A DNA stretch of 62,194 nt from a bacterium (GTDB lineage Bacteria > Fibrobacterota > Fibrobacteria > UBA11236): positions 1 to 62,194 of the forward strand of contig OMJM01000017.1 of assembly GCA_900299345.1 (NCBI GenBank), in the 5' to 3' direction. Of the stretch, positions 3,577 to 19,021 are shown piece by piece; positions within the stretch are counted from its first letter, which is position 1, and each line of letters opens with the position of its first letter. The notes under the pieces were generated by a model. That model saw only the letters and a program-made list of their open reading frames with translations. It had not been told where the DNA came from and made no database searches. The position numbers and the translations under genes are program-made.

Positions 3577-3844
3577 GTTGTTTCTCGGCGTTTATTCTCC
3601 GAGTTAGGAGTTCGATTTGTTGTTTCCGGATTTGAGTCATCCGTGAATACAAAAGCTCTGAATGTGTCATTGGATCTGCTCATAAACGACGGAGCAAAGA
3701 CTCCTAATTTCAATTTTTTCGGCAAAAGTCGTTTGACTTGCTCTCCACTTGGAGGTAAGTTCATCCGACACAAAACCCGGGGTCGCAAGGCTCCAGGTAA
3801 TTTTTTTGTTTGATGACGGACTGCACGCGAGGAAGAGAACGCAT

Positions 3845-5332
3845 ATGCTCAAGCATTTGAAGGCTGCGCTCCTGTTTACGACAACATTGGGGTTTCATGC
3901 CGCTTCCGCAAAGGTCCTTCAGGTGCCTTCCGCGTATCCGACGATTTCCGGGGGATTGATACACGCAGAATCCGGAGACACGGTTCTTGTGGGACCGGGC
4001 ACATATCGCGAGAACGTGACGTTGGCTCAAGGCGTGGTGTTGCTCGGCCAGGATGCATTGAAATGCATCATTGACGGCATGCGCAAAGGGCCTGCCGTTA
4101 CCGTGGTGGCCGGTTCGGAAATCGGAAAATTCACGATTACCAATGGTGTTGATGGAGTGCTTTGCGAAAATGCCTCGGCACGTATCCATCATAACTGGAT
4201 TATCGACAATGAAGGCGCGGGGATTGGAGCGTTCATCGCGCTTCCACAGATCGACAACAACGTCATTTATGGAAACCGCTGGTCGGGAATTCTTGTGTGG
4301 GGTGCCAAGGCGCTCGATACGCGCATTGAAAACAATGTGATCATGCGCAATGGATACAGCGGCCTGGCGCTGCGCGGCCCAACGCGCATCGTTGTGCGCA
4401 ACAATGTGTTCACCGAGAATCGTGAATACGGCATATTCTCCGATCCGGCCGCGGGGCAGTCGCAGGTGATTTACAATAACATTTACAAGAACTACATGCC
4501 GTTCAACCGTTATACGAAGGTGAACAAGTCCAACATCTCCACGGATCCGATGTTCCTAAGCCCGGGTCTAGGAAATCCCAATTTCCTCCCTGCCGCCAAG
4601 TCACCCATGGTGCGCCGTGGCTACGAACAGGTCGACATTGGTTTGCTGGCGCACGAGATCGTCGCCAAGGTGGATGGAGACAAGGATAATGACGGCGTTT
4701 CCGACTCGAAGGATGCATGCCCGGAATTGGCCGAGGATCAGGATGGTTATCAGGATGATGACGGTTGCCCGGATTTGGACAACGACAAGGATGGCATTTC
4801 CGATGCGCAGGACAAGTGCCCGAACGATGCGGAAGACAAGGATGGGTTTGAGGATTCTGATGGCTGTCCGGATTTGGACAACGACAAGGATGGCGTTGCC
4901 GATGCGCAGGATAAGTGCCCAAATCAACCGGAGACCATGAATGGAATCAAGGATGACGACGGCTGCCCCGATGTCGAAGTCAAAGCGCCGGAAGACAACT
5001 TTGTGCTGGAAGGTGTGAATTTCCGCACCGGCAGTGCCGATCTCACCGAAGATTCCTACGCGCAGTTGGACAAGGTGGTGGAAGCCTTGGTGAAATATCC
5101 CGACCGGCGCTTTGAAATCGCGGGACATACGGACAATGCCGCCACGGATCGGGTCAACCTGAAGCTTTCCTTGGATCGGGCCAACAGCGTGCGCGACTAC
5201 CTGTTGAAAAAAGGTGTTGATGCGCAACGGCTCGTTGCAAAGGGTTATGGATCATCCCGCCCCAAGGCGGACAACAAGACTGCGGAAGGACGGACCTTGA
5301 ATCGGCGGATTGAGTTCTACCGCATCAAGTAG
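3845..5332 (+). CDS. OmpA-family protein with beta-helix and TSP3 repeats
   Basis: This protein of 495 residues has three parts. After a signal peptide cleaved near AASA-K23, residues 23-265 show repeated NNVI/NNVF/HNWI motifs of a right-handed parallel beta-helix (NosD/pectate-lyase-like). Residues about 277-375 are thrombospondin type 3 repeats, with DxDxDG(V/I)xD and DGCPD units that bind calcium. Residues about 380-495 are an OmpA C-terminal domain (FRTGSADL, EIAGHTDN, LSLDRANSVRDYLL, NRRIEFYRI), which grips peptidoglycan. The ATG at 3845 gives the signal peptide; the upstream open frame lacks one. It is the first gene of the 3845-14300 cluster, 32 bases before the barrel-TPR gene, and probably anchors the machine to the cell wall. 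Confidence 0.88.
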   Translation: MLKHLKAALLFTTTLGFHAASAKVLQVPSAYPTISGGLIHAESGDTVLVGPGTYRENVTLAQGVVLLGQDALKCIIDGMRKGPAVTVVAGSEIGKFTITNGVDGVLCENASARIHHNWIIDNEGAGIGAFIALPQIDNNVIYGNRWSGILVWGAKALDTRIENNVIMRNGYSGLALRGPTRIVVRNNVFTENREYGIFSDPAAGQSQVIYNNIYKNYMPFNRYTKVNKSNISTDPMFLSPGLGNPNFLPAAKSPMVRRGYEQVDIGLLAHEIVAKVDGDKDNDGVSDSKDACPELAEDQDGYQDDDGCPDLDNDKDGISDAQDKCPNDAEDKDGFEDSDGCPDLDNDKDGVADAQDKCPNQPETMNGIKDDDGCPDVEVKAPEDNFVLEGVNFRTGSADLTEDSYAQLDKVVEALVKYPDRRFEIAGHTDNAATDRVNLKLSLDRANSVRDYLLKKGVDAQRLVAKGYGSSRPKADNKTAEGRTLNRRIEFYRIK

Positions 5333-5364: not shown

Positions 5365-7587
5365 GTGGACGCCTTGAACCATCGAATCGCCTTCCTTCCG
5401 ATACTGGCCTTGACCGCCATCGGGTTCGGGGACATGCCTTACAAGCCGAACGCCTACCAGCAGAATGACTGGTTCGCGGAGTTCGGCGAGAATCTTGGCT
5501 CTTATGTCAACCCCGCGTCCATTGCGGAAGCGGATCAGATTGAAGTGGGTGCGGGAGTTTATCGCACGCTTTCAGGCAAAGCGGGACAGGAATTCGTCAG
5601 CGCCGTTCATCCCTTCGGATACAATCATACGGTGGCCCTCACATATTTTGAAAACGGTTCGGACATCGAAGGCTCCAATGCCTCTTACCTCGAAAACGCC
5701 TACATCCTCGGCTATGCGTTGCGCATGCCTTGGGGAGCGCCCGGCGGCATCAGCCACAAGGTGGCCTTGGGTGTCAATGCCACCATTTTCCAGTACGACC
5801 CGTTCGGTGCCTTGGGTGGCGTGCAATACGCTTATGGCGCGGACGTCGGGTTGGTTTACAATCCCTTCACGGCCTCCTCCATGGGACAACTCTTGCTCGG
5901 TGTGGCAGTGCAGAACGCCTTGCAGCCCAAGGTCAAGACGACCACGGGCAGCTATCACATCCCGAGAAATTTGAACGCCTCTTTGTTCTGGCGCGGATTC
6001 AACAGAAAGCTGGAATTGGCTGGTTCCGCGAGCGTGCTTGACATTACGCACGAGAGCACGGAAGGCGGCAAGGGAAACCAGATCGTTCCGACGGGGCGCA
6101 TTACGTGGTATGTCCAGCCGTGGGCAGGATTGAAGCTGAAATATTCCAAACAGGGATATCCCGTGGGCGGTATCACCTTGAACGTGCAACGCCTCAACCT
6201 GTTCCGTTACCTGCAGATCGACGTGGACATGTCGCATGATGCGTTGACTTCGGACAACCAAGAGCGCGGTTTTGTGTGGAATGTGCGTGCCACGACACGG
6301 CTCGGCCCTACGCGTGAAGAGCGCATCGGTGACGCGCGTTACCGCCGTCTTCTCATCGAACCCGAGGAGGCCTATCGCAAGGCGATGCAACTTTATCTCG
6401 CCCGCAAATTCCTCCCCGCGGCTTACGCATTTGGTGTGGTTACCAGCAAATATCCCACCTTCCACCTCGTGGATCAGGCCGCCTTTTACAAGGGGAAGGC
6501 GTTCGAAAGCCTCCGCATGAACGATGCGGCCCAAACCGTCTATGAGGATGCTTTGCGCAAATTCACGGACTCCGATTTGCGTCCCAAGTACATGTTCCAG
6601 ATCATGAACATCTATTATAAGGAAGGCAAGTACGACGACGCTTCCCGTCTGCATCAACAACTCGTGAATCTTTACCCGGAGTCCGACGTCAAAGCGGACG
6701 CAGATTATGTGATGGGGCAGATCAAGTATCTCAAACGGGATTACAACGGGGCCATTGCCCTCCTCAGCCCGATTGTCCCCGGTAACGGCAATTACCCTTA
6801 CGCGCGTTATACGATGGGTGTCTCCTATGCTGGTTCGGGAAAGATGAGCGAGGCCGAGGCGGCTTTCCAAAACGTCGCGGAACTCAAGCCCTCCAACTCC
6901 GCGGGGCAGGAGATGAAGGACGCCGCCATGGTCAAGTTGGGCCATATCAATTTCGGCAAACCCATGATGAAAAAGGCCGCGGAATATTACGTGTCCGTCT
7001 CCACCAACAGTCCGCACTACGACGAGGCGCTGTTGGGACTGGCGTGGGCGTTCCTCAAGGAGAAGAACTTCAAAGGCGCCGCGGACTACGCGAATGCCAT
7101 CATTTCCAAGACACCCAACAGTCTGCAGGTTCCCGAGGCCCATCTTCTGCTGGGTTATTGCGCATTCTTCGCCCAGAATTACGATCAGGCCCTTTCGGAA
7201 TTCGACAAGGTGGTGGATCTCGCCGAGAAGAAAGCTTCTTCGATTCAGGATATGAAAAAGCAGCGCGGCAAAAATCCGGCCAACAGCCCGGAATACGCGG
7301 CGGTGCAGAAGGAAGCCGAGGAACTCTCCGATCAACTTCCCACCGATCGTGTGGTTGAAAAGCAGGCGCAACTTCGCTCGAAGTTTGATGCGGTGTATGC
7401 CAAGGTCGAGAAGTACTACGAGTTCCAGCGCGATGCGGAACGTTACGAGAAATTCCTTCAGGACAAGACTCGCATCGTGAAGGATGCGAAGTTCACCAAG
7501 GCCACGGTCATCAATATCAAGGCCGGTTCCGGAGGAAAGAAGAGCGGACCTTCGCAACAGGATTTGAAGGGCCTTGAAGTCGAATAG
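5365..7587 (+). CDS. Outer-membrane beta-barrel protein with C-terminal TPR domain
   Basis: The 740-residue product begins with a short signal-like segment (RIAFLPILALTAIGFG). Residues about 25-325 are rich in alternating aromatic strands and open with NPASIAEADQIEVGAG, the style of PorV/PorQ/FadL-like outer-membrane barrels. From about 330 to 640 there are tetratricopeptide repeats (KAMQLYLARKFLPAAYAF, YKEGKYDDASRLHQQLV, AFFAQNYDQALSEF), then a charged helical end. I infer a barrel in the outer membrane with a periplasmic TPR scaffold. The start is a GTG at 5365 behind AGGGA; a TTG at 5374 is an alternative. It sits between the OmpA gene and the large TPR gene in one apparent operon. Confidence 0.8.
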   Translation: MDALNHRIAFLPILALTAIGFGDMPYKPNAYQQNDWFAEFGENLGSYVNPASIAEADQIEVGAGVYRTLSGKAGQEFVSAVHPFGYNHTVALTYFENGSDIEGSNASYLENAYILGYALRMPWGAPGGISHKVALGVNATIFQYDPFGALGGVQYAYGADVGLVYNPFTASSMGQLLLGVAVQNALQPKVKTTTGSYHIPRNLNASLFWRGFNRKLELAGSASVLDITHESTEGGKGNQIVPTGRITWYVQPWAGLKLKYSKQGYPVGGITLNVQRLNLFRYLQIDVDMSHDALTSDNQERGFVWNVRATTRLGPTREERIGDARYRRLLIEPEEAYRKAMQLYLARKFLPAAYAFGVVTSKYPTFHLVDQAAFYKGKAFESLRMNDAAQTVYEDALRKFTDSDLRPKYMFQIMNIYYKEGKYDDASRLHQQLVNLYPESDVKADADYVMGQIKYLKRDYNGAIALLSPIVPGNGNYPYARYTMGVSYAGSGKMSEAEAAFQNVAELKPSNSAGQEMKDAAMVKLGHINFGKPMMKKAAEYYVSVSTNSPHYDEALLGLAWAFLKEKNFKGAADYANAIISKTPNSLQVPEAHLLLGYCAFFAQNYDQALSEFDKVVDLAEKKASSIQDMKKQRGKNPANSPEYAAVQKEAEELSDQLPTDRVVEKQAQLRSKFDAVYAKVEKYYEFQRDAERYEKFLQDKTRIVKDAKFTKATVINIKAGSGGKKSGPSQQDLKGLEVE

Positions 7588-7618
7588 CGCGAAACGCGGA
7601 CAGGAACGGGGATTGGAG

Positions 7619-10600
7619 ATGCGGAATCATCAATTGAAAGCCGCGGTGGTCCGCTGCGTGGCGTGGCTTCTGGCCGCCGGCTTGACGGTTTCGGCCCTGG
7701 CGGATGCGCGACTCGACGATCTCAAGAAACGCAAGGGAGAGTTGGATCAGCTGGCCGCGCAGTGCGCCACCATGCAAGATCCACAGAAGGCAGATTGTCT
7801 TGCGGCGCGCCAGAAGAAAGTCGACAAATACAAGGCGGATCTTGCCGCGTACAAGTCCGACGTAAACAAGGCTTCCTCAGCAGAGGAGACCCAGGACTAT
7901 CAAACCGCTGTCACGCTGCGCGAGAAGAGCATCAAGGAATTCCTGGATTATCTCTCGGGCTGCACGGAGAAATCCACTTCCTGCGCTTCCGCGTTGTTTC
8001 AGGCTGCCACGTTGAGTTATCAGAAGGAGGAATACATCTTCCTTTCAGAGCAGGCGAAATACGAATCAGACATGCAGAAATGGGAGGATCACGATCGCCG
8101 CGGTCCCGAGCCTGTTTCACCCAAGCGCAATCACGCCGCTTCTCTCCAGTTGATTCAAAGGTTCCTCAAGGAATATCCCAACAACAAGGAAGTTCCTGAT
8201 GTGCTGAAGCTGGCGTCGTTCATCACCGACATGCAGGGAAACGACGAGCAGTCCTTCGAATATCTCAGCAAGTTGGTGGCGGGATGGCCCAATCATCCCG
8301 CAGCCGTCAAAGCGCATTTGCGCCTGGGGGATTACTGGTTCCTCAAGCGTGAGTATGCGAAGGCAGTGGAGCACTTCAACGCTGTGCCGCTGGATGATGG
8401 CAACGACGCGGCGCTGGCACTGTATCGCAGGGCGGAAACCTATTACAACATGGCTTCCTACGAGGAAGCCGCGCGCTGGTTTTTCGAGTATATCGTCCGA
8501 GCCGACGCAGGGAAGATCAAAGGTGATGCGCGCGACGAAGCCATGTCGTTCATGGCCACGAGCTGGGCGGATATGGACAACGGTTTCGAGACCGCCTCAA
8601 AATTTCTGGCCGAGCATGGAAATCCGTCTTGGGAAAAGGATGTGTATTACCAGATTGGACTCAAGAACAAGGCGCATGATCGTCTTGATGAGTCCGTTAA
8701 GGCTTTCAGATTCCTGTTGCAGAAAGATCCAGCCTATGTGAATGCTCCCGCGGCCGACATGGCCATCGTGGAAATTCTGATTCTTCAGAAAAAACCGGAC
8801 GAGGCCCAGAAGGCGCGCATGGAACTTTCAAACCGCTATGCACCGGGATCGGATTGGTACCGGAAAAATGCGGGCAACAAAGAAGCTGTGGCTGCAGCTG
8901 ATAAGGCGGTCCATCTCGCATTGTATCAGATACCTGTGTACTACCATGCCAAGAGCGAAGCGGGTGACAGCGATCAGGCTTTATTGGTCAAGGCGGAAGA
9001 AGGATACCGCGCCTACTTGAACCGTTTCCCGGACGAAGTGTCCTGGGATGTGTATCAGGTTCATCAGAACCTCGCGGGTATCTATACCAAGCGCAAGGAC
9101 AATATCAAGGCTGCTACAGAATGGCGTTGGTGTGTCAGTGCGGATTCTTCGAAACTCGGACCATTGCCCAAGGACAAGAAGAACCTGATCTCGCGTCAAG
9201 ATGCGGGTTACAACGCCGTGTTGATGATGGACGATGCTCGCAGAGATGCTCTAGCGGGCGTGTATCATAACGACACCGCCGCAGCCTTCAACGGCCCGGA
9301 AACGAAGGCCTATTTCGAATACGTGCAATGGTACAGCGGTTTGTTCGGCAGCTCACCGGTGATTGCCGAGCTCGCCTATAACGCAGCCATCTTGAATTAT
9401 GAAGCCAAGCGTTTCGACGACGCCATCAAGCCTTTGAGCGATTTGATTGCGAAGTTCCCTGATCATCCCCGCGTGGTTTTGATCCGCCGCGCCCTTGCGC
9501 AGTGCATGCTGGAAGGCGGAAAGTACGATGATGCCGCCAAACAGTTTGTGATCCTGCAGAATAAGCTTTGTCCTTACGATTCGCAATGCGCGGGAATCAA
9601 AAAGTCACTGGCTTCCACCATGTACAAGCAGGCGGAAGGGCAGAGGAACTCCCATGATTATGCTGCGGCCGTTCAGCAGTTTCTGAACATCGCCAGCCGT
9701 CATGAAGAAGGAATTTCAGACAAGGCCCTGTTCGATGCCGGTGTGACCGCGGATTCTGGAGGCAAGCCGGACGAAGGCGCGCGCTATCTGCTCCGCATTC
9801 CCCAAGAGTATCCCAACTCGACCCTCAAGGTGAAGGCGCTCCTCCGCGCGGCCTCCATCTATATGACCGCGCAGAAGTATCGAGATGCGGCGGATGTTTT
9901 CTTGCGTCTTCAGCGTGATTATCCCACGGATTCTCTAGCCGGCGTGCATGCCATTGGCTGGGCCGCGGATGCTTACACTAAGGCGCAAAGTGTCCGTCAG
10001 GCGGCGCAGACGTATGAGATGTCCTTCCGTCTTTATCCTAATCACGTCAAAACGCCGGGTTATCTCTATAATGCCGGCCTTATCTACGACAGCTTGAAAG
10101 CCTATGGAGACGCCATTGCCGTCTATCAATTGCTTTATCAGAACTATCCTACCAATGAATACTCCTCCGAAGCGATGTTCACGGTGCCGCAGCTTTTGGA
10201 AAAACAGGGTGACAAGGCGCGTGCGGCGGAGGCCTATCGCGATTTTGCCGCGAAGTATCCCGGTGACAAAACCAAAGTGATGCAAGCTTTGTTGAGCGCC
10301 GGCAAAAACTATGAAGCCTCGGGCGACGAAAAACAGGCGCTTGAGAACTATGAAAAATGCATGGCTCTACAGAAGAACAGCACGGGTGTGCCTCCGGCCA
10401 TGGCTTCCGAGGCCGCTTATCGCGCTGGCGATTTTTATTACAAGAAAGTCGCCGCTGTGCGTCTGGATGGCACAAAAGCCCAAAACGATGGCCGTACCAA
10501 GAGTATGACGGATAATCTGATTCCGGCTATTCAAAGTTATGCCCAGGCTGTGCAATTTGCAGAAGAGGAATGGGCTTTGCGCGCTACTTTGCGCATGGGA

Positions 10601-11128
10601 GATCTTTTCTCCACCATTGCCATTATCACAGACAATCAACGCGTGGCAGGTCTTTCCGGGGAGGATCGCTTCCGGGTTGCCATTGCCAGCAAATCTTCGG
10701 TTCCCAATTATCTCGACAAAGCCAAGGACATCTACAAGAAAAACCTTGATGTCGGTCTGAGCCAGAATATCGATAATGTCTGGATCGACAGTACTGGCGA
10801 TCGGCTCCTCAGCGCCTTTTTGTTCAAGGGTCGCGCTTTGGAGGAATTAGGGCAGCTTTATCTTCAGGTTCCCCTGCCGACGGAAGCGGACGGTGTTTCG
10901 GCTGAGGATTTGGCCCAAGCCCGGGCGCAATTGAAGTCCGCTGCAGACGAGAAGAAAGCCGCTGCCGTGGAGAACTATCGTGAAGCACTGAATATCGCGC
11001 AGACATATTATCTCAATAATCCTACCAGAAGTCGCATCCTTACCCGTTTGCGCGAACTGGCTCCCGATTCTCCAGAGCTTCAGTTACAAGTGCCTGCCAA
11101 ACCCAGAGGAAACGCCAAACCCGGATAA
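7619..11128 (+). CDS. Large periplasmic tetratricopeptide-repeat protein
   Basis: This 1169-residue protein has a signal peptide (hydrophobic stretch about 11-27, ending SALADA) followed almost entirely by TPR-type helix pairs, for example YWFLKREYAKAVEHF, LNYEAKRFDDAIKPL, YMTAQKYRDAADVFLRLQ and YNAGLIYDSLKAYGDAIAVYQ. No catalytic motif or transmembrane segment is visible after the signal, so it should be a long periplasmic solenoid able to bridge membranes or hold partners. GGAG is placed 2-3 bases before the ATG at 7619; that start gives the signal peptide. It lies 31 bases after the barrel-TPR gene and 190 bases before exbB. Its size is near that of the large TPR proteins of myxobacterial gliding machines, but homology was not tested. 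Confidence 0.85.
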   Translation: MRNHQLKAAVVRCVAWLLAAGLTVSALADARLDDLKKRKGELDQLAAQCATMQDPQKADCLAARQKKVDKYKADLAAYKSDVNKASSAEETQDYQTAVTLREKSIKEFLDYLSGCTEKSTSCASALFQAATLSYQKEEYIFLSEQAKYESDMQKWEDHDRRGPEPVSPKRNHAASLQLIQRFLKEYPNNKEVPDVLKLASFITDMQGNDEQSFEYLSKLVAGWPNHPAAVKAHLRLGDYWFLKREYAKAVEHFNAVPLDDGNDAALALYRRAETYYNMASYEEAARWFFEYIVRADAGKIKGDARDEAMSFMATSWADMDNGFETASKFLAEHGNPSWEKDVYYQIGLKNKAHDRLDESVKAFRFLLQKDPAYVNAPAADMAIVEILILQKKPDEAQKARMELSNRYAPGSDWYRKNAGNKEAVAAADKAVHLALYQIPVYYHAKSEAGDSDQALLVKAEEGYRAYLNRFPDEVSWDVYQVHQNLAGIYTKRKDNIKAATEWRWCVSADSSKLGPLPKDKKNLISRQDAGYNAVLMMDDARRDALAGVYHNDTAAAFNGPETKAYFEYVQWYSGLFGSSPVIAELAYNAAILNYEAKRFDDAIKPLSDLIAKFPDHPRVVLIRRALAQCMLEGGKYDDAAKQFVILQNKLCPYDSQCAGIKKSLASTMYKQAEGQRNSHDYAAAVQQFLNIASRHEEGISDKALFDAGVTADSGGKPDEGARYLLRIPQEYPNSTLKVKALLRAASIYMTAQKYRDAADVFLRLQRDYPTDSLAGVHAIGWAADAYTKAQSVRQAAQTYEMSFRLYPNHVKTPGYLYNAGLIYDSLKAYGDAIAVYQLLYQNYPTNEYSSEAMFTVPQLLEKQGDKARAAEAYRDFAAKYPGDKTKVMQALLSAGKNYEASGDEKQALENYEKCMALQKNSTGVPPAMASEAAYRAGDFYYKKVAAVRLDGTKAQNDGRTKSMTDNLIPAIQSYAQAVQFAEEEWALRATLRMGDLFSTIAIITDNQRVAGLSGEDRFRVAIASKSSVPNYLDKAKDIYKKNLDVGLSQNIDNVWIDSTGDRLLSAFLFKGRALEELGQLYLQVPLPTEADGVSAEDLAQARAQLKSAADEKKAAAVENYREALNIAQTYYLNNPTRSRILTRLRELAPDSPELQLQVPAKPRGNAKPG

Positions 11129-11318
11129 GAGGTTGTCGTTTGGGGAAAACCGAATAAAAGCGGTTTCTGCAAGAAATGTCATGCGGATTTCATGTATTGG
11201 CAGTATTATAAGTCTGAAAATTTGGTGATGTTTCAAGGCAAAAACGTGGGTCCGCGCCCCGGTTTGTGTTGAGCCAACTTTTTAGTTTAACCCTTACTCA
11301 CTCACAGGAGAGGAAACA

Positions 11319-11930
11319 ATGGAACTGATTCTCAAGGGCTTCAACGGAGAGGGACGGTATTACATGTCGCTGATTATCGTGTTGGGATTGATTTCCCTCG
11401 CGATCATCGCGGAGCGTTTCCTTTACATCTACGTCCGTTCTTCCAAGGGCCGCGCGGTTTTCATGCGTAACGTGGCCAAGCTGCTGCAAGCTGGCAAGGT
11501 GGATGAGGCGACCCGTTTGGCCGCCAGCCAGACCACTCCGCTTTCCAAGGTTATCTCGGCCGTGTTGCAGAACAAGCCCAAGGGTCAGGCTGCCGCCGAA
11601 CGCGCCGTGGACGAAGTCTATCTGACCGAAGCCCCCCGCATCAACCGTTACCTGAACCTGCTGCCTGCCTTGGCCAACATTGCCATGCTTTGCGGCCTGC
11701 TGGGCACCATCTTCGGTCTGATTCTCGCCTTCGACGCCGTGGCCAACCTTCCGGCTGCCCAACGTCCCGCCGCGCTCGCCAACGGTATCTCCATCGTTAT
11801 GGTGAATACCTGGTCCGGTCTGGCGGTTGCCATTCCCGTGTTGCTCTGCCACGGTCTTTTGTCCATGCAGTCCGAGCGTTTGCAAGAAGAGATGGAAGAG
11901 AAGTCCGTTAAGGTGATGAACCTGCTCTAA
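11319..11930 (+). CDS. MotA/TolQ/ExbB proton-channel family protein
   Basis: This 203-residue inner-membrane protein has three helices at about 17-36, 115-135 and 153-175. The core LLGTIFGLILAFDAV followed by IVMVNTWSGLAVAIPVLL is the ExbB/TolQ signature. These proteins form a pentamer around an ExbD dimer and use proton flow to drive a periplasmic partner. In the usual TTA-GL motif the first threonine is Asn here (NTWSGL), a mild divergence. AGGAGAGG lies 6 bases before the ATG, a very strong ribosome site after a 190-base gap, so this gene may have its own promoter. It is followed by two ExbD genes and a TonB-like gene. Confidence 0.93.
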   Translation: MELILKGFNGEGRYYMSLIIVLGLISLAIIAERFLYIYVRSSKGRAVFMRNVAKLLQAGKVDEATRLAASQTTPLSKVISAVLQNKPKGQAAAERAVDEVYLTEAPRINRYLNLLPALANIAMLCGLLGTIFGLILAFDAVANLPAAQRPAALANGISIVMVNTWSGLAVAIPVLLCHGLLSMQSERLQEEMEEKSVKVMNLL

Positions 11931-11987
11931 ACGCAAACCGTTATTCGCCGGGTGGTTGTAGAGCGGCCACCATCGGCCGGGGAAAGC

Positions 11988-12797
11988 ATGAAGAAATCAA
12001 GAATCAAGTCCCACAAACACCGGGAACTCGATCTACTTCCGGTGATGAGCCTGTTCTCCATTCTGGTGACCATCGTGATTTCGATGGCCACCTTTGAGAA
12101 ATTGGGTATTCTCGAACTGTGGCTTCCGGAACGCAGCCAGGCCATGACGAATCAGGCCGAGGATGTCGATCCGGGTCTGCTCAACCTCACGGTGATCATC
12201 ACGGACAAGAGCATCACCATCGGTGCTTCCGGTGGCTTCCAGCCCGCCGTGTATTATCAAGAGGAAGTGCAGTATCGCAGCCGTTCGGATCAGCACGTAT
12301 TCCGCAAGGTTTACGTCAAGGGCGAACAGGTGAAGTCCCCGACCGATGGGCGTATCATGACGCCCTACGAGCGTGAGACGATTTTCCTGAATGCCATTTC
12401 AAAAAAGGATTCCTCGGATCCTGGCACCTATATGTACGCCGCCATGGATCCTCAGGGCGAACCGCTCATGGATCCTTCCGGAAACTGGTACAAGGAAGTC
12501 CCGCCCGTCGGTGCCCAGTACCGAGCTGTCGGGGACGTCAAGATGCTGGTTATGAATGCCGGTACGCGCGCACGTTGCAAAGTCGACAAGCTCAGCGCCT
12601 ATCATGAAGTGGCGCGAGTTCTCGACGGTGCGCACAAGCGGTTCGAACAAATGTCCACGCCGCCCGCTGACATTGACGACATTGTCATTCTCGCAGGTGA
12701 AGACGTGATTTACGACAAGATCATCCAGATGATGGACGCTTGTAAAGCGGCCGGATATGAGCGCGTTGCCTTGTCGCTCATGGGAGGGGAAGCCTGA
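11988..12797 (+). CDS. ExbD/TolR-like protein 1 (lacks the channel aspartate)
   Basis: This 269-residue protein has one N-terminal membrane helix (about 17-35) and a periplasmic domain ending IDDIVILAGEDVIYDKIIQMMDACKAAGYERVALS, the typical ExbD/TolR fold end. The usual INxTPxID motif reads LDLLPVMS, so the proton-carrying Asp in the helix is replaced by Ser21. An insertion of about 100 residues (YYQEEVQYRS to SGNWYKEVP) makes it longer than normal ExbD (about 140). The ATG at 11988 behind GGAAAG is chosen because it starts just before the helix. The stop overlaps the start of the second exbD (TGATG). It probably pairs with ExbD 2 as a non-conducting partner; that is inference. Confidence 0.85.
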   Translation: MKKSRIKSHKHRELDLLPVMSLFSILVTIVISMATFEKLGILELWLPERSQAMTNQAEDVDPGLLNLTVIITDKSITIGASGGFQPAVYYQEEVQYRSRSDQHVFRKVYVKGEQVKSPTDGRIMTPYERETIFLNAISKKDSSDPGTYMYAAMDPQGEPLMDPSGNWYKEVPPVGAQYRAVGDVKMLVMNAGTRARCKVDKLSAYHEVARVLDGAHKRFEQMSTPPADIDDIVILAGEDVIYDKIIQMMDACKAAGYERVALSLMGGEA

Positions 12798-13348
12798 TGC
12801 TGGGTGAAGTACAAAATCGCGAAGTGCGCGGTCATGATGAGCATGCCGAGCATGTCGGACTGAAAAAACGCAAGGTCAAGAAGCAGGACGAAGCCGGACT
12901 CATCATCACTTCTTTGATCGATGTGTTTGTCATCGTGTTGACCTTTTTGCTGAACACAATCTCAGCCGAAGGCAACCTTTTGACGTCGGCAGATAATCTC
13001 GTGCTTCCCATGTCGGCACACGCAAAGTCGCCCCAGGAAGTCTCCATGACCATCGTGGGTGATGACAAGCATATCACGGTGGACGGTGCGGTGGTGGCGG
13101 AAACCGACAACGTTCGCAAGCAGGACAGTCTTCTCATCGGGTCCATGGTCAAGGTGCTGGCCAAGCTGCACGAGAAAGAAAAAAAGGCCGAGATGATGGG
13201 TGTCATCAAGGATGCCGCAGGAAAGGTCGTGGTTCAGTTCGACAAGAATCTGCCCTACGACATCGTTACCAAGGTCATGGCGACCTGTGGTTACGCGGGC
13301 TATAGCAACATCAAGTTCGCAGTGATGCGCAACAACGAGGATGGTTGA
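12797..13348 (+). CDS. ExbD/TolR-like protein 2 (retains the channel aspartate)
   Basis: This protein has 183 residues. After a basic cytoplasmic tail (HDEHAEHVGLKKRKVKKQDEAG) comes one membrane helix with LIITSLIDVFVIVLTFLL, where Asp42 is in the place of the proton-carrying aspartate of ExbD/TolR. The periplasmic part ends VVVQFDKNLPYDIVTKVMATCGYAGYSNIKFAVM, matching the ExbD C-terminal fold. It should form the plug of the ExbB channel with ExbD 1. The ATG overlaps the previous stop, and GGGAGGGGA precedes it. The stop lies just before the ATG of the TonB-like gene, so exbB, both exbD genes and the TonB-like gene form one tight unit. Confidence 0.92.
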   Translation: MLGEVQNREVRGHDEHAEHVGLKKRKVKKQDEAGLIITSLIDVFVIVLTFLLNTISAEGNLLTSADNLVLPMSAHAKSPQEVSMTIVGDDKHITVDGAVVAETDNVRKQDSLLIGSMVKVLAKLHEKEKKAEMMGVIKDAAGKVVVQFDKNLPYDIVTKVMATCGYAGYSNIKFAVMRNNEDG

Positions 13349-13349
13349 A

Positions 13350-14300
13350 ATGGCCAACAAAGCCAAAGGCTCCAGAGATCCTTTTGTCGAAAAGTTCGAG
13401 GTTGAGTCCGATGCGCGACTCTTCCGTTTTCTCGGGGTGTTCGTTCTCGTTGGCGCCGCGTTGATGTCCTACATGATGACGGTCACCGTCGTCGTGCCCG
13501 GCATTGTGACGCAGCACATCAAGAAGGAGACGGAAACCAAGGTGACCATCGACTTCGACAAGATGCAGAAGGACAAGGAAAAGGAGAAGAAGAAGGAAGA
13601 GAAGAAGAAGGAAGGTCCTCCCAAAACCCATGAAGGCGGCGGTCGCGCTCATGGCAGGGGAACCCCCAAGGCGCTTGCCACACAGGCGGCTCTCAAGCTC
13701 ATTACTTCCAAGTCCTCGGCGACTTCTCTTTCCAGCTATACCCTGTTGGGTTCCAAGTTCACCAAGGACATCGACAAGGTGCTCAACAGCGTCTCTGGCT
13801 TGACCAAGACGGGGCAAACCCGTCTGGGTGGCCGTCCCGGAATGGCCACGGGTGGAGACTGGAACGGCGGCTACGCAGCCAGTGGTTCTGGCGGCGTGGA
13901 TGATATGCTGGGTGGCCTTTGGGGCGGCGGCGGCGGTATCGGTGGTTTGAAGGCCAAAGGCAGTTTCAAGGCGCCGTCGGCTTCTGACATTGATTTGGGC
14001 GAAGCCGGAGGACAACGTTCGACGGAGTCCATCATCTCCGTCATTCGGCAGCATACTCCGGGACTTCGTCATACCTTCGAGAAGTACCTGAAGATGCAAC
14101 CCGGATTCAGGGGCAAGGTGACCATGCGTTTGACCATTGCACCCAGTGGCAATGTCATCGAAGCGGCCATCGTTTCCAGCACCACGGGTAACGATGCATT
14201 TGATCAGGAAATTCGAGAAAAGGTCAAGACGTGGCGCTTCGAGCCCATCAAGGGCAAGGGTAACGATGGCGTGACCGTTCCGTTCAACTTCTCCGAATAA
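13350..14300 (+). CDS. TonB/AgmX-like energy-transducing protein
   Basis: This 316-residue protein has a cytoplasmic N-terminus, one membrane helix (about 25-48), a highly charged Lys/Glu segment (about 63-85), a Gly-rich linker (MLGGLWGGGGGIGGL), and a TonB-type C-terminal domain from about 230 (KVTMRLTIAPSGNVIEAAIVSSTT, VKTWRFEP, VTVPFNF). This resembles AgmX/PglI C-terminal domains. TonB/TolA-like proteins carry force from ExbB-ExbD to outer-membrane partners. I choose the ATG at 13350 because GAGG lies 9 bases before it; an ATG at 13341 is also in frame. No TonB-dependent receptor is present in the window, so the partner may be the OmpA, barrel or TPR protein of this cluster. A terminator follows. 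Confidence 0.88.
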   Translation: MANKAKGSRDPFVEKFEVESDARLFRFLGVFVLVGAALMSYMMTVTVVVPGIVTQHIKKETETKVTIDFDKMQKDKEKEKKKEEKKKEGPPKTHEGGGRAHGRGTPKALATQAALKLITSKSSATSLSSYTLLGSKFTKDIDKVLNSVSGLTKTGQTRLGGRPGMATGGDWNGGYAASGSGGVDDMLGGLWGGGGGIGGLKAKGSFKAPSASDIDLGEAGGQRSTESIISVIRQHTPGLRHTFEKYLKMQPGFRGKVTMRLTIAPSGNVIEAAIVSSTTGNDAFDQEIREKVKTWRFEPIKGKGNDGVTVPFNFSE

Positions 14301-14321
14301 GGAACACTTTTGATTGACGAG

Positions 14322-14352
14322 AAACCCGCGGGTCAAAACCGCGGGTTTTTTA
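14322..14352 (+). terminator. Intrinsic terminator closing the ExbB-ExbD-TonB unit
   Basis: AACCCGCGG (14323-14331) pairs perfectly with CCGCGGGTT (14339-14347) across a 7-base loop and runs into a T tract (14346-14352). It lies 22 bases after the TonB-like stop and 15 bases before the next start. Confidence 0.9.
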
Positions 14353-14366
14353 TTTTCGGGAATCTT

Positions 14367-14768
14367 ATGCGTCTTTTTCTTTTCGCGATCCCATTGTTCC
14401 TAATAGCCTGTGGTTCGCCCCCCAAAGAGTTGCAGAAGAAGTTGCAGGACATCGGTAATGCCGATCTGGAGATCATTGTCAAAGGGCTTCCTGAGCAGGC
14501 ACGTAAGGAAGCGTTACTTCCCAAGCCTTACTTCGTAGTGGATACGTACAAGGAGTTTCAAGGCGATACGGCCCGCATGTTCCAGGCATATGCCGTGCTG
14601 GCCTTCTTTTATCTCGATCCATCCCTGGACCTCTGCCAGATCAGGAAATACCGCTATCGCCGCTCGGCGCGGGTCTGGGAACGTTTCGACGTGGTACTCC
14701 GACATATTCCAGCCAAATACGTGGATGGTGAGGAGTCAGATTCGTCTGGAACGGCTGAAAAACCCTGA
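14367..14768 (+). CDS. Small lipoprotein
   Basis: This 133-residue protein has a short signal ending LFLIACGS, so the lipidated residue is Cys14. The mature part has a charged helix (KELQKKLQDIGNADLEIIVKGLPEQ) and a tyrosine-rich segment (LCQIRKYRYRRSARVWERFDVVLRHIP); I do not recognise it. The upstream open frame runs through the terminator, so the ATG at 14367 is preferred. It lies directly after that terminator and 42 bases before mreB, so it could share the mreB transcript, although a GTG start and a different role leave this open. Confidence 0.65.
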   Translation: MRLFLFAIPLFLIACGSPPKELQKKLQDIGNADLEIIVKGLPEQARKEALLPKPYFVVDTYKEFQGDTARMFQAYAVLAFFYLDPSLDLCQIRKYRYRRSARVWERFDVVLRHIPAKYVDGEESDSSGTAEKP

Positions 14769-14810: not shown

Positions 14811-15833
14811 GTGTTTGGATTGCTTTCCAGCGACATAGGGATTGATTTAGGAACCGCAAACACGTTGGTGCATGTCAGCGGTCGGGGGATTGTGGTCAAC
14901 GAGCCATCCGTCGTGGCGGTGGATCGGCGCAATAATAAGGTTCTTGCCATCGGAAGCGAAGCCAAACGCATGCTTGGCCGCACACCCGGCGAGGTCATTG
15001 CGATTCGTCCCATGAAAGACGGTGTCATCGCGGACTTTCAGTTGGTGGAGAGCCTGCTCACTAAGCTGATCAAGACTGCGCAAAAATATCCACTCTTTTT
15101 TCTCCGTCCGCGCATCGTCATTGGCGTTCCGTCCGGAATCACCGAGGTGGAAAAACGCGCGGTGCTGGACGCGGCGCGCAAGGCAGGCGCCCGCGAAGTT
15201 CATTTGGTGGCTGAGCCGATGGCGGCTGCCATCGGCATGGGAATTCCCGTGGAGGATCCGAGCGGGAGCATGGTCATCGACATCGGCGGAGGGACCTCTG
15301 AGATTGCGGTGATCGCGCTTTATGGCATCGTGTGCGACACATCGGTGCGTGTGGGTGGCGACGAGATGGATGAAGCCATCATCAGCTACCTCAAGAAGAA
15401 CTACAACCTGCTTGTCGGCGAAAGCATGGCCGAGAAGATCAAGATGCAGATTGGCGCGGCGTATCCGCTGGAACGGGAACTGGAAATGGAAGTCAAGGGG
15501 CGCGATCTTGTGCAGGGCATTCCGCACACGCTCCGCATCAGTTCCGCCGAAATCCGCGAGGCGCTGGCCGAGCCTGTGAACGCCATTGTGGAAGCCGTGC
15601 GCCGCGCTCTGGAGCAGACGCCCCCGGAGCTTTCCGCGGATCTCATGGACAAGGGCATCGTGATGACCGGCGGCGGCGCGCAGTTGCGCGGCCTTGACGA
15701 GTTGCTGCGGCGGGAGACCAACCTGCCGGTGAACGTCATCGACGATCCGATGGTGTGCGTTTGCAAGGGGACTGCGCGCATTCTCGAGGACATGGGCAAG
15801 TACTACAAGGTCCTCATGGATTCCCAACGCTGA
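14811..15833 (+). CDS. mreB: Rod shape-determining protein MreB
   Basis: The protein has 340 residues, the normal length. The actin-fold phosphate loops are visible: DIGIDLGTANTLV near the N-terminus, VIDIGGGTSEIAVIAL in the middle, and GIVMTGGGAQLRGLDELL near the C-terminus. MreB forms ATP-dependent filaments on the inner membrane and guides the elongasome. The N-terminal MFGLLS is a short amphipathic start as in other MreBs. The start codon is GTG at 14811 behind AGAGG. It is the first gene of the five-gene rod operon and is separated from mreC by 7 bases. Confidence 0.98.
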   Translation: MFGLLSSDIGIDLGTANTLVHVSGRGIVVNEPSVVAVDRRNNKVLAIGSEAKRMLGRTPGEVIAIRPMKDGVIADFQLVESLLTKLIKTAQKYPLFFLRPRIVIGVPSGITEVEKRAVLDAARKAGAREVHLVAEPMAAAIGMGIPVEDPSGSMVIDIGGGTSEIAVIALYGIVCDTSVRVGGDEMDEAIISYLKKNYNLLVGESMAEKIKMQIGAAYPLERELEMEVKGRDLVQGIPHTLRISSAEIREALAEPVNAIVEAVRRALEQTPPELSADLMDKGIVMTGGGAQLRGLDELLRRETNLPVNVIDDPMVCVCKGTARILEDMGKYYKVLMDSQR

Positions 15834-15840
15834 CGTCCCG

Positions 15841-16671
15841 GTGAACCTCCTCGATTGGCTGCGCAAGGCGCTTGGCGCATGGCACGGCATCTTCTCGCTG
15901 ATTCTTTGTGTTGTTCTTTCATCCCTGCTAATCTCTTTGGACAGGCCCGGGCGTGTGGTGTTCCACGAGGTCATGACGGGCACATTTTTCTACCCGCTGG
16001 AAAAACTGCTCTCCGGTTTCAATGGGACCGTGCGCATCTATCGCGAGAACGAGCGTTTGAGCAGGGAAAATTCCCTGTTGAGCGTGCAAAACGATCGCCT
16101 CAACCAATTGCTGCTACAGATGCCGCGACTTCAGGGTATGGAGCGCTTTCAGGCCGAAGCCGGCCTGAGACTCAAGGCCGCGAATGTCCTTGCGGAAGAT
16201 CCGGGAAGATTGCGGACCTCATGGGTTCTGGATTTGGGGACTGCGGATTCACTGGAGGTCAATATGCCGGTGCTGACCTCCCGGGGGATCGTGGGCAAGA
16301 TTGCCAAATGCTTCGGGCATTACAGCATCGTGCAACTTTACCTTGACCCCGCATTCAAGGTTTCATTGCAGGTGGAGCGCAGCCGGGTACGTGGAATGCT
16401 GGAATCCGATGGATCCGGACGGTTGATGGGGCGATTCCCGGCGGGTTCCGACGTCCGGACCGGGGATACGTTGATCACCGCGGGATTGGGAGGTGTGTTT
16501 CCCAAGGGGTTGAAGGTGGGATTGGTGTCCGGGAAATCCGTCTCAAATGAGGATCAGACCGCGGATATCATGGCTGTCTTTGGTGTGAATCCTTTTCAAT
16601 CGCTGAACACGGTGGAGGAGGTTTTTATCCTTATCAAGCGCGACGAATGGAAATTGGAGGTAATTCCATGA
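15841..16671 (+). CDS. mreC: Rod shape-determining protein MreC
   Basis: The 276-residue protein has one membrane helix at about residues 17-31 (IFSLILCVVLSSLLIS), a coiled coil at about 56-84 (YRENERLSRENSLLSVQNDRLNQLLLQ), and a beta-rich periplasmic domain with VLDLGTADSLEVNMPVLTSRGIVGKI and a FPKGLKVGLVSGKSV segment typical of MreC. It links MreB filaments with PBP2 and MreD in the elongasome. The start is GTG at 15841. Its last codons overlap the mreD start (ATGA at 16668), which indicates coupled translation. Confidence 0.96.
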   Translation: MNLLDWLRKALGAWHGIFSLILCVVLSSLLISLDRPGRVVFHEVMTGTFFYPLEKLLSGFNGTVRIYRENERLSRENSLLSVQNDRLNQLLLQMPRLQGMERFQAEAGLRLKAANVLAEDPGRLRTSWVLDLGTADSLEVNMPVLTSRGIVGKIAKCFGHYSIVQLYLDPAFKVSLQVERSRVRGMLESDGSGRLMGRFPAGSDVRTGDTLITAGLGGVFPKGLKVGLVSGKSVSNEDQTADIMAVFGVNPFQSLNTVEEVFILIKRDEWKLEVIP

Positions 16672-17159
16672 ATCGCGCATGGAAACTATGGGCGGTGGAA
16701 ATCGCCATACTCGTCGGCGCGTTGCTTCTCCAGCAGACGCTGGTGAGATGGATCGCCATCGGTTCCATTCGACCCGATTTGCCGTTGATCGCCATCATTG
16801 CATTGGCATTGCGTCGCGGTCCCGTGGCGGGGCTGTATGCGGGGATGGCGGTTGGTTTGACGCTGGACGTCTACGCCATTGATGCGCTGGGTGCCAATGC
16901 GCTTTCCAAATGCCTTGTCGGCTATGCCCTCGGTTTCTTTGAGGAAAAACGGGTGAAGAGCATGCCCGCAATGCGTGTGGTGTTTCTCGGCATGGGATTT
17001 CTGGCACACGACACTATTTTTTATCTCGCGTCAGGATTTCACGCTCATGCCTTTTGGATGGCCGTTTTCCGGCAAACCCTGCCTTCCTGTGTTTACACCC
17101 TGTTGATCGGGGCTTGCGTCTTTTATTACACCGCCCGCATGTCCCATCGGGAGGCATAA
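16668..17159 (+). CDS. mreD: Rod shape-determining protein MreD
   Basis: A 163-residue polytopic membrane protein with about five helices and the MreD features IRPDLPLIAIIALALRRGPVAGLYAGMAVGLTLDVY and LGANALSKCLVGYALGFFEEK. It is a membrane component of the elongasome. The ATG at 16668, with GGAGG 9 bases upstream, overlaps the mreC stop. The PBP2 gene starts 2 bases after its stop, so the order mreC-mreD-mrdA is kept without gaps. Confidence 0.93.
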   Translation: MNRAWKLWAVEIAILVGALLLQQTLVRWIAIGSIRPDLPLIAIIALALRRGPVAGLYAGMAVGLTLDVYAIDALGANALSKCLVGYALGFFEEKRVKSMPAMRVVFLGMGFLAHDTIFYLASGFHAHAFWMAVFRQTLPSCVYTLLIGACVFYYTARMSHREA

Positions 17160-17161
17160 GC

Positions 17162-19021
17162 GTGGCGGCACCACGTTCGAATCTTCTTGATGATTCCCAT
17201 TACCGCGCTTCGGCAGCGCGCTGGTTGCTCCTTTTCGTGTCGTTGATGGCGGCGCTGCTGGCCTTGCGCCTTTTTTATCTCCAGATTATCAAGGGCTCCT
17301 ATCACGAAATGCTGTCGGCGCAGAACAGCTTGCGTCTCCAGGTCGTCAAGGCCGCTCGTGGGATGATTTACGACCGCCACGGCGTGGTCATTGCGCGTAA
17401 CCGGCCGTCCTACCAAATCGCCCTGCTGCCGACGGAACTGAAAAATCGGCAGGAGATTCTGGAAAAGCTGCTCCGCTTTAGGGACTCCACGGGACATTCC
17501 ATATTTGATTCTGAAGTCGTGGCCTGGAGTCTGGAACGTTCCCGCTGGCGCAAATTTCAGCCGTTGGTGATTTTCGAAGACGCGCCCTTTGAAGTGGCGT
17601 CACTGATAGAGGAGCATCAGACGGATCTTCCCGGCGTCGTCACGTTATTGGAGTCGCGCCGCACGTATCCCTTTGGGGCGGCTGCGGGTCACACATTGGG
17701 ATATATGGATGAGGTTCGGGAGGGAGAGATTGAGGATTCGAAAACCCGCGCAGCTGTGGACGGAAGCACACCCTATCAACGGGGCGATCGGATAGGCCGC
17801 AAAGGCTTGGAACGAAAATACGAGAATTACTTCCGTGGCAAGGATGGCATTCGATATGTCAAAGTGAATGCCTTCGGCAAGGAGATGGAGGCGGTTTCCG
17901 ACATGCCGCACCTTCGGCCGGAGGCGGGTAAAAGCATTCGCACGACGCTCGATATGGGATTGCAATGTTATGCGGAATCGCTGCTCTCGGATTCTTTAAA
18001 GGGCGCGTTGGTGGCTTTGGATCCCCGCAACGGCGAGATACTCGTCATGGCTTCTTCGCCAAGAATGGATGGCAATATTTTCTCGCTGAACCGGGACCGG
18101 CGAGCACGCGCCTGGGCCAAGCTCGCGCTGGATCCGTCGTTGCCTCTGAACAATCGCTCTATCAGCGGCAGCTATGAACCTGGCTCCACGTTCAAGGGGA
18201 TTGTCTCCATTGCAGCCCTCCAATCGGGGAAAATCCGGGCTGAAAATCATATGTCGCGGGCATGCAATGGGGGATACGCCTTTGGAAATCGCGTGTGGAA
18301 ATGCTGGGATCCGCGCGGTCACGGGTTTCTCGATCTCGTGGGTGCGTTTACGCAATCCTGCGACGTCTACTACTACCAGGCCGGGCTTGTTCTCGGCATG
18401 GATCGCATCAACAGGGTCGCCCGGGAGTTCGGTCTGGGTAGAAAAACAGGCATCGATCTGGATGACGAACGCTCGGGTTTGCTGGTGGATTCCGCCTCAT
18501 ATGCGGAGCGGTTCGGCCAGCGCGGCTGGAATTGGTCCCGTGGCTTGATTCTGAATCTTTCCATTGGACAGGGGGAGATTGCGACCCCGTTGCAGCTCGC
18601 CAATTATGCCGCGGGGCTGGCCAACGGAAAAGTCCTGTATCGGCCGCATCTCATGCGTGAGATGCGCAGCGTCGAAGGGTCGGTGGAAATGCAGGTGAAA
18701 CCTGAAATCCTGAACGTTATCCGCATGACGCCCCAAGAACACGCCATCATTCTGCAGGCCATGGAGCAGGTGGTGATTTCGCCCAATGGCACGGCTGGTC
18801 GCGCCAGAGTTCCGGGAGTGCGTGTGGGTGGCAAGACCGGTTCGGCGGAGAACCCACAGGGAGACAAGACGCACGCCCTGTTCATATGCGCAGCCCCGTT
18901 GGACAATCCCACCATCGCCGTGGCGGTGGTGCTTGAAAATGCCGGTCACGGTGGTTCATTTGCCGCACCCATCGCCGGGGCACTACTTCGAAGGTTTTTT
19001 GGACATGAGCCGCACGGATAG
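17162..19021 (+). CDS. mrdA: Penicillin-binding protein 2 (elongasome transpeptidase)
   Basis: This 619-residue class B penicillin-binding protein crosslinks peptidoglycan during cell elongation. It has a membrane anchor at about 20-40, a dimerisation/pedestal region containing GMIYDRHGVVIARNRPSYQIALLP, and a transpeptidase domain with the SxxK motif (Ser342-TFK345 in PGSTFKG), SCD at the SxN position (TQSCDVYYYQ) and KTG (Lys558 in GGKTGSAEN). The GTG at 17162, 2 bases after mreD, removes a 36-residue extension that would overlap mreD. Its 3' end overlaps the rodA start by 17 bases, so PBP2 and its glycosyltransferase partner are coupled. Confidence 0.96.
   Translation: MAAPRSNLLDDSHYRASAARWLLLFVSLMAALLALRLFYLQIIKGSYHEMLSAQNSLRLQVVKAARGMIYDRHGVVIARNRPSYQIALLPTELKNRQEILEKLLRFRDSTGHSIFDSEVVAWSLERSRWRKFQPLVIFEDAPFEVASLIEEHQTDLPGVVTLLESRRTYPFGAAAGHTLGYMDEVREGEIEDSKTRAAVDGSTPYQRGDRIGRKGLERKYENYFRGKDGIRYVKVNAFGKEMEAVSDMPHLRPEAGKSIRTTLDMGLQCYAESLLSDSLKGALVALDPRNGEILVMASSPRMDGNIFSLNRDRRARAWAKLALDPSLPLNNRSISGSYEPGSTFKGIVSIAALQSGKIRAENHMSRACNGGYAFGNRVWKCWDPRGHGFLDLVGAFTQSCDVYYYQAGLVLGMDRINRVAREFGLGRKTGIDLDDERSGLLVDSASYAERFGQRGWNWSRGLILNLSIGQGEIATPLQLANYAAGLANGKVLYRPHLMREMRSVEGSVEMQVKPEILNVIRMTPQEHAIILQAMEQVVISPNGTAGRARVPGVRVGGKTGSAENPQGDKTHALFICAAPLDNPTIAVAVVLENAGHGGSFAAPIAGALLRRFFGHEPHG

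Follow-up and report, generated by a model that had tools for sequence, protein, structure and literature searches.

Models of 5:2 motors have two identical axle helices alternately bringing an Asp to the ExbB/MotA ring, with ten ions per revolution, and in review this 10-fold symmetry has been termed 'almost certain to be a universal feature' (PMC9389320). The TolQR structure shows two offset TolR helices, only one Asp touching the threonines at a time (PMC12215075). E. coli TolR and ExbD are homodimers with two Asp; MotAB and GldLM have the 5:2 rotary architecture in common with them (PMC9389320), again with a homodimeric axle. In the TPH-vWA pairs two different axle proteins are co-encoded per TolQ-like pentamer, with the Asp on both halves and vWA in place of TolR domains (PMC12204202).

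The AglRQS/Glt machinery for gliding of Myxococcus xanthus combines one ExbB/TolQ protein with two different TolR-like subunits, a GltG-type transducer and TPR proteins (PMC3169522, PMC3858216). AglQ and AglS are both reported with the conserved Asp, and whether they form hetero- or homodimers has been stated to be unknown (PMC9389320); the D28N change in aglQ abolishes function (PMC3858216). Luciano et al. reported an aglRQS/glt core complex in one member of the Fibrobacteres, possibly the locus analysed here (PMC3169522). Our search of the open-access literature found no description of an Asp-less ExbD/TolR protein, and a literature search for MotB dimers with one Asp found none. The Asp-less ExbD partner described below appears new in this respect, whereas two-protein axles are already known, with an Asp on each half.

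Layout of the motor locus

The window (the whole stretch of DNA that was analysed, 62,194 nucleotides) is contig C17 of a 2.24 Mb genome (G000:C17). A gene run at 5365-14300 encodes a barrel/TPR protein, a 1184-aa TPR protein, an ExbB/TolQ-like protein, two ExbD proteins (ExbD1 and ExbD2) and a GltG/TonB-like transducer. The features of the locus are as follows.

5365..7587, + strand: protein of 740 aa with an outer-membrane barrel-like N-terminus and TPR, a syntenic partner (upstream position kept in class Fibrobacteria; TPR matches)
7574..11128, + strand: large TPR protein of 1184 aa that probably serves the motor module as its partner in the periplasm (TIGR02795/TPR matches)
11319..11930, + strand: ExbB/TolQ/AglR-like channel subunit with channel threonines T130 and T164 (PF01618, 78.4 bits)
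11988..12797, + strand: ExbD1, 269 aa, TolR-like, without the proton-carrying Asp (S21) and with an insert of ~115 aa at about residues 81-197 (PF02472; alignment; model; best PDB fold match TolR 5by4)
12048..12050, + strand: Ser21 codon AGC, the channel-Asp position of ExbD1
12797..13348, + strand: ExbD2, 183 aa, TolR-like, retaining the proton-carrying Asp, D42 (PF02472, 52.7 bits; D42 in 143/143 homologues)
13341..14300, + strand: GltG/TonB-like force transducer with an AgmX/PglI C-terminal domain (NF033768, 78 bits against a cut-off of 40)
14310..14768, + strand: small lipoprotein-like gene whose position is shared within class Fibrobacteria (by synteny)
14811-19021: mreB-mreC-mreD-PBP2, downstream of the small lipoprotein-like gene (MreB by NCBIfam; the others by gene order and sequence)

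An AglR-like protein and two TolR-like subunits are thus clustered with TPR and GltG-type genes, as in AglRQS-Glt, but the Asp conserved in both AglQ and AglS (PMC9389320) is missing from ExbD1. The transducer scored 76.6 bits against the GltG equivalog NF033760, whose cut-off is 650, and only its AgmX/PglI C-terminal domain passes a threshold. Genomes above the curated GltG cut-off were limited to G195 and G342, and in both of them ExbD1 has the Asp; the Asp-less type is therefore a distinct variant beside AglRQS-like motors with two Asp. AglQ D28N is inactive though AglS is reported to have its Asp, which implies that a motor with a natural Asn-bearing partner follows different rules.

A homologue of the 1184-aa TPR protein adjoins the ExbB-ExbD1-ExbD2 triad across Fibrobacterota and in most of the modules checked outside. 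The 740-aa protein has GltE/GltC matches, far under the cut-off, and a family profile search with the small lipoprotein-like gene gave no match. Also syntenic with the operon is a protein at 3749-5332 that has repeating strands, acidic repeats of the calcium type and, at its C-terminus, an OmpA domain; its TraB-like match was far under the cut-off. Throughout class Fibrobacteria (L067-L135) mreBCD-PBP2 follows directly downstream of the motor operon, which is not so at the Chitinivibrionia-type loci examined. This position is notable because MreB movement in Myxococcus is reported, in work cited by PMC9389320, to depend on AglQ/S.

The channel position in ExbD1 and ExbD2

Both ExbD proteins passed the ExbD/TolR family profile PF02472 (ExbD1 36.4 bits, ExbD2 52.7 bits; gathering cut-off 25.4 bits), and both scored below the TolR/ExbD equivalogs TIGR02801, TIGR02803 and TIGR02804 (at most 21.7 bits for ExbD1 and 24.7 bits for ExbD2, against 123-153). 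In the phmmer alignment, E. coli TolR 'KSEINIVPLLDVLLVLL' pairs gap-free with 'hreldllpvmslfsilv' of ExbD1: S21 falls on the essential Asp, TolR D23, and D15, six residues before it, on TolR N17, an ordinary Asn. Aligning the ExbD1 and ExbD2 profiles to E. coli ExbD gave the same placement, in which D15 corresponds to ExbD N19 and D42 of ExbD2 to the channel Asp. ExbD2 therefore has the channel Asp in its transmembrane (TM) helix and ExbD1 does not, as the preliminary description had proposed for both copies, and Asp15 of the first copy does not occupy the channel position. The window proteins are of the same family as E. coli TolQR and ExbBD, with the same channel residues and a gapless TM alignment, and TolR is the top fold match of ExbD1; they differ in that two paralogues, one Asp-less and with a large insert, replace the homodimer with its two Asp.

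It could be argued that Asp15 of ExbD1 is a relocated proton carrier, so that both subunits still carry protons, and D15 is indeed found in 107 of 112 Fibrobacterota ExbD1 sequences. Its counterparts TolR N17 and ExbD N19, however, place it ahead of the TM helix, which begins at residue 19 in E. coli TolR (PMC12215075). Position 15 is non-acidic, mostly Asn, in 30 of the 73 Asp-less ExbD1 rows, and none of the 73 has an acid anywhere in TM positions 16-33; positions 15 through 33 are thus acid-free in those 30 rows. Asp-bearing ExbD1 proteins also show Asn at position 15. In view of the alignment, and of Asp-less relatives in which this residue and the channel residue are both Asn, we regard relocation to Asp15 as highly improbable and rejected it.

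Predicted models gave each protein an N-terminal TM helix (ExbD1 17-37, ExbD2 34-57, both at low confidence) followed by a TolR-type periplasmic alpha/beta domain, and the best PDB match of the ExbD1 model was TolR 5by4 (E 2e-3). The roughly 100 extra residues noted earlier in ExbD1 are real: in the model they form a block of ~115 residues between strands b2 (75-80) and b3 (198-201), predicted at a pLDDT of about 85-95. A fold search with the insert returned no reliable match, those to MreB/actin having low TM-scores. The insert is almost confined to Fibrobacterota; elsewhere ExbD1 is mostly 150-220 aa long and lacks it, G266 excepted. Among eleven long-flank modules from outside the phylum, all had a GltG-type gene and nine had a large TPR gene beside the triad, the other two being L353, where the contig ends, and L352, where TPR was not detected. 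Since insert-free ExbD1 proteins are also accompanied by TPR proteins, the TPR partnership does not depend on the insert, and the earlier suggestion that it is there to contact the TPR partner is weakened.

Conservation within and outside Fibrobacterota

The ExbB-ExbD1-ExbD2 triad occurs in one order in Fibrobacter, Fibrimonadales and Chitinivibrionia-type classes. Among 111 readable Fibrobacterota ExbD1 sequences, a set that includes some near-copies and excludes one further row, L140, with a partial or misaligned frame, the channel residue was Gly in 60, Asn in 35, Ser in 8, Ala in 6 and Cys in 2, and never Asp or Glu. In a later, wider, de-duplicated set, a single triad ExbD1 of the phylum had the Asp: the remote L328 of genome G014, in the window's class. 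Meanwhile, the channel Asp of ExbD2 was present in 95/95 sequences from Fibrobacterota and 48/48 from outside (143/143 in all), and the ExbB threonines were nearly invariant, T130 in 98/98 and T164 in 97/98 Fibrobacterota sequences and each in 78/79 outside. As read from these alignments, the conserved feature of ExbD1 is the missing acid, not Ser. The check whether orthologues keep Ser21 thus held for the absence of an acid and not for Ser itself; no orthologue in the phylum-wide triad set had Asp there (0/111), but L328 did, as did nine of 48 sequences from outside the phylum.

Several other explanations of these patterns were discarded. ExbD1 is not a decaying pseudogene, given constrained residues in both its TM helix and its periplasmic domain (in Fibrobacterota M20 in 104/112, L26 in 110/112, F36 in 110/112 and D15 as above). 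Ser was ruled out as a conserved functional residue by the variation among Gly, Asn, Ser, Ala and Cys. A replacement acid in the ExbB TM segment was also rejected: D139 is present in 90/98 sequences in Fibrobacterota and in only 17/79 outside. As a separate observation, a Lys eleven residues past the channel Asp of ExbD2 is found in 87/95 sequences in the phylum and 31/48 outside, and is Asn53 in the window (12953-12955).

A search with the ExbD1 profile found relatives in 42 non-Fibrobacterota genomes. The ExbD2 profile (A5), which does not select on ExbD1 state, was then used on 224 non-Fibrobacterota genomes to avoid bias; ExbD2-type genes at E < 1e-15 were found in 42 of them, with the same kind of triad, and nearly all were far stronger matches than the background near 1e-7. 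Readable ExbD1 sequences from outside the phylum numbered 48, with Asn in 37, Ser in one, Gly in one and Asp in nine, so that 39/48 were Asp-less; these came from 35 genomes in at least 31 families. The split between ExbD1 and ExbD2 had an SH-aLRT of 100, and the pair is therefore old. On the tree, which is weakly resolved, the Asp/no-Asp state of ExbD1 requires some five changes.

Probable pairing of the subunits and the proposed mechanism

Does ExbD1 work together with ExbD2? Usually there is one ExbB gene per ExbD1-ExbD2 pair, and almost every locus keeps the order ExbB-ExbD1-ExbD2. The stop codon of ExbD1 and the start codon of ExbD2 overlap as ATGA, which suggests coupled synthesis of the two; the 3' end of ExbD2 also overlaps the GltG-like gene. 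Both proteins are absent jointly from G001 and G003, although assembly gaps may partly explain this. In G010 (L178; 4711-6021, - strand, and 5997-6779, - strand) ExbB and ExbD1 lie in a single reading frame of 437 aa that has a free ExbB gene upstream and the ExbD2 gene downstream. This fusion, seen in one MAG and with an internal GTG start possible, would place ExbD1 in the ExbB complex, and could be a natural fixed-stoichiometry motor. Single ExbB, constant order, gene overlap, joint absence and the G010 fusion are indirect but all consistent with pairing, and ExbD1 and ExbD2 would most likely form a heterodimer in one ExbB pentamer. The orphan ExbD1-like genes described below argue against it.

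Two observations stand beside these. G001 (98% complete) and G003 belong to the window's genus, and the lack of both ExbD1 and ExbD2 there suggests that the genus has in part lost the motor. Five orphan ExbD1-like genes, each Asp-less, lie at L170 4707-5504, L171 4898-5734, L172 4475-5290, L174 4544-5326 and L181 4238-4789; ExbB and ExbD2 were not detected nearby, and full triads occur elsewhere in the same genomes.

It is also possible, if rather unlikely, that ExbD2 homodimers with ExbB make an ordinary ten-proton motor and that ExbD1 never conducts, acting as its own homodimer, as an accessory subunit that binds peptidoglycan or partners, or on an idle ExbB pentamer. ExbD2 homodimers in ExbB would equally account for the invariant ExbD2 Asp; the canonical features are in ExbD2 alone, the periplasmic domain of ExbD1 is enlarged in Fibrobacterota, and the orphans have neither ExbB nor ExbD2 nearby. 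An ExbD1 outside the channel is, on the other hand, less easily reconciled with a TM helix that is highly constrained where the ExbB pore would be lined, with the usual single ExbB gene and overlapping reading frames, and with the fusion of ExbB to ExbD1 in G010. On balance, we favour a motor related to TolQR/AglRQS but asymmetric, 5:1:1 in composition and with a single proton-carrying residue.

In such a proton motor of the TolQR/AglRQS type, the two axle subunits would have diverged into different proteins within a pentameric ExbB channel, with which the conservation of the channel threonines agrees. In sequence, only ExbD2 has the protonatable Asp, which in relatives faces the threonine ring; the helix of ExbD1, with its uncharged Asn, Gly, Ser, Ala or Cys, would be a non-protonatable half-axle. 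With only ExbD2 protonatable, the heterodimer would take up one proton per 72 degrees of rotation, giving about five protons per turn, not ten, and half the maximum energy per turn; the motor might advance in coupled 72-degree steps or act as a ratchet with a powered stroke and a passive one. From the gene content, force may pass from the ExbD periplasmic domains to the GltG/TonB-like transducer and on to the TPR and outer-membrane partners.

The Asp-less half might instead make the heterodimer something other than a full rotor: a ratchet that runs one way, a switch or a device confined to a limited arc, which would regulate force on the GltG/TPR chain and leave the proton count per turn as it was. 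The offset helices of TolQR, with only one Asp on the threonines (PMC12215075), would suit such a device, as would the TM proline at +7 from the channel position that accompanies loss of the Asp outside the phylum, found in 38 of 39 Asp-less and none of nine Asp-bearing ExbD1 proteins. The window's own family, however, lacks the Asp and has T or V at 28 instead of the proline, and we consider this alternative improbable; L328 has the Asp together with the proline. The covariation of Asn and proline gave a Fisher p of 6e-9 with kinship ignored, and the tree gives only 1-5 independent pairs, a number too small for a test that corrects for kinship; not being phylogenetically independent, the covariation was dropped as independent proof.

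Returning to the 5:1:1 motor, we propose tentatively that ExbB5-ExbD1-ExbD2 complexes form a widespread class in which selection keeps exactly one protonatable axle subunit, with 5 protons per turn and steps of 72 rather than 36 degrees. In models of MotAB, ExbBD and TolQR the axle is taken to be symmetric and to hold two proton sites; an axle with a single Asp would depart from the 10-fold coupling. A one-site motor, if true, has been kept across the phylum and in at least 31 families outside it, and would be a natural experiment on whether the second site is necessary, bearing also on the energy per turn and on the origin of two-gene axles. In many bacteria the wild type of one subunit has an uncharged channel residue, often Asn, the same replacement of Asp that inactivates AglQ.
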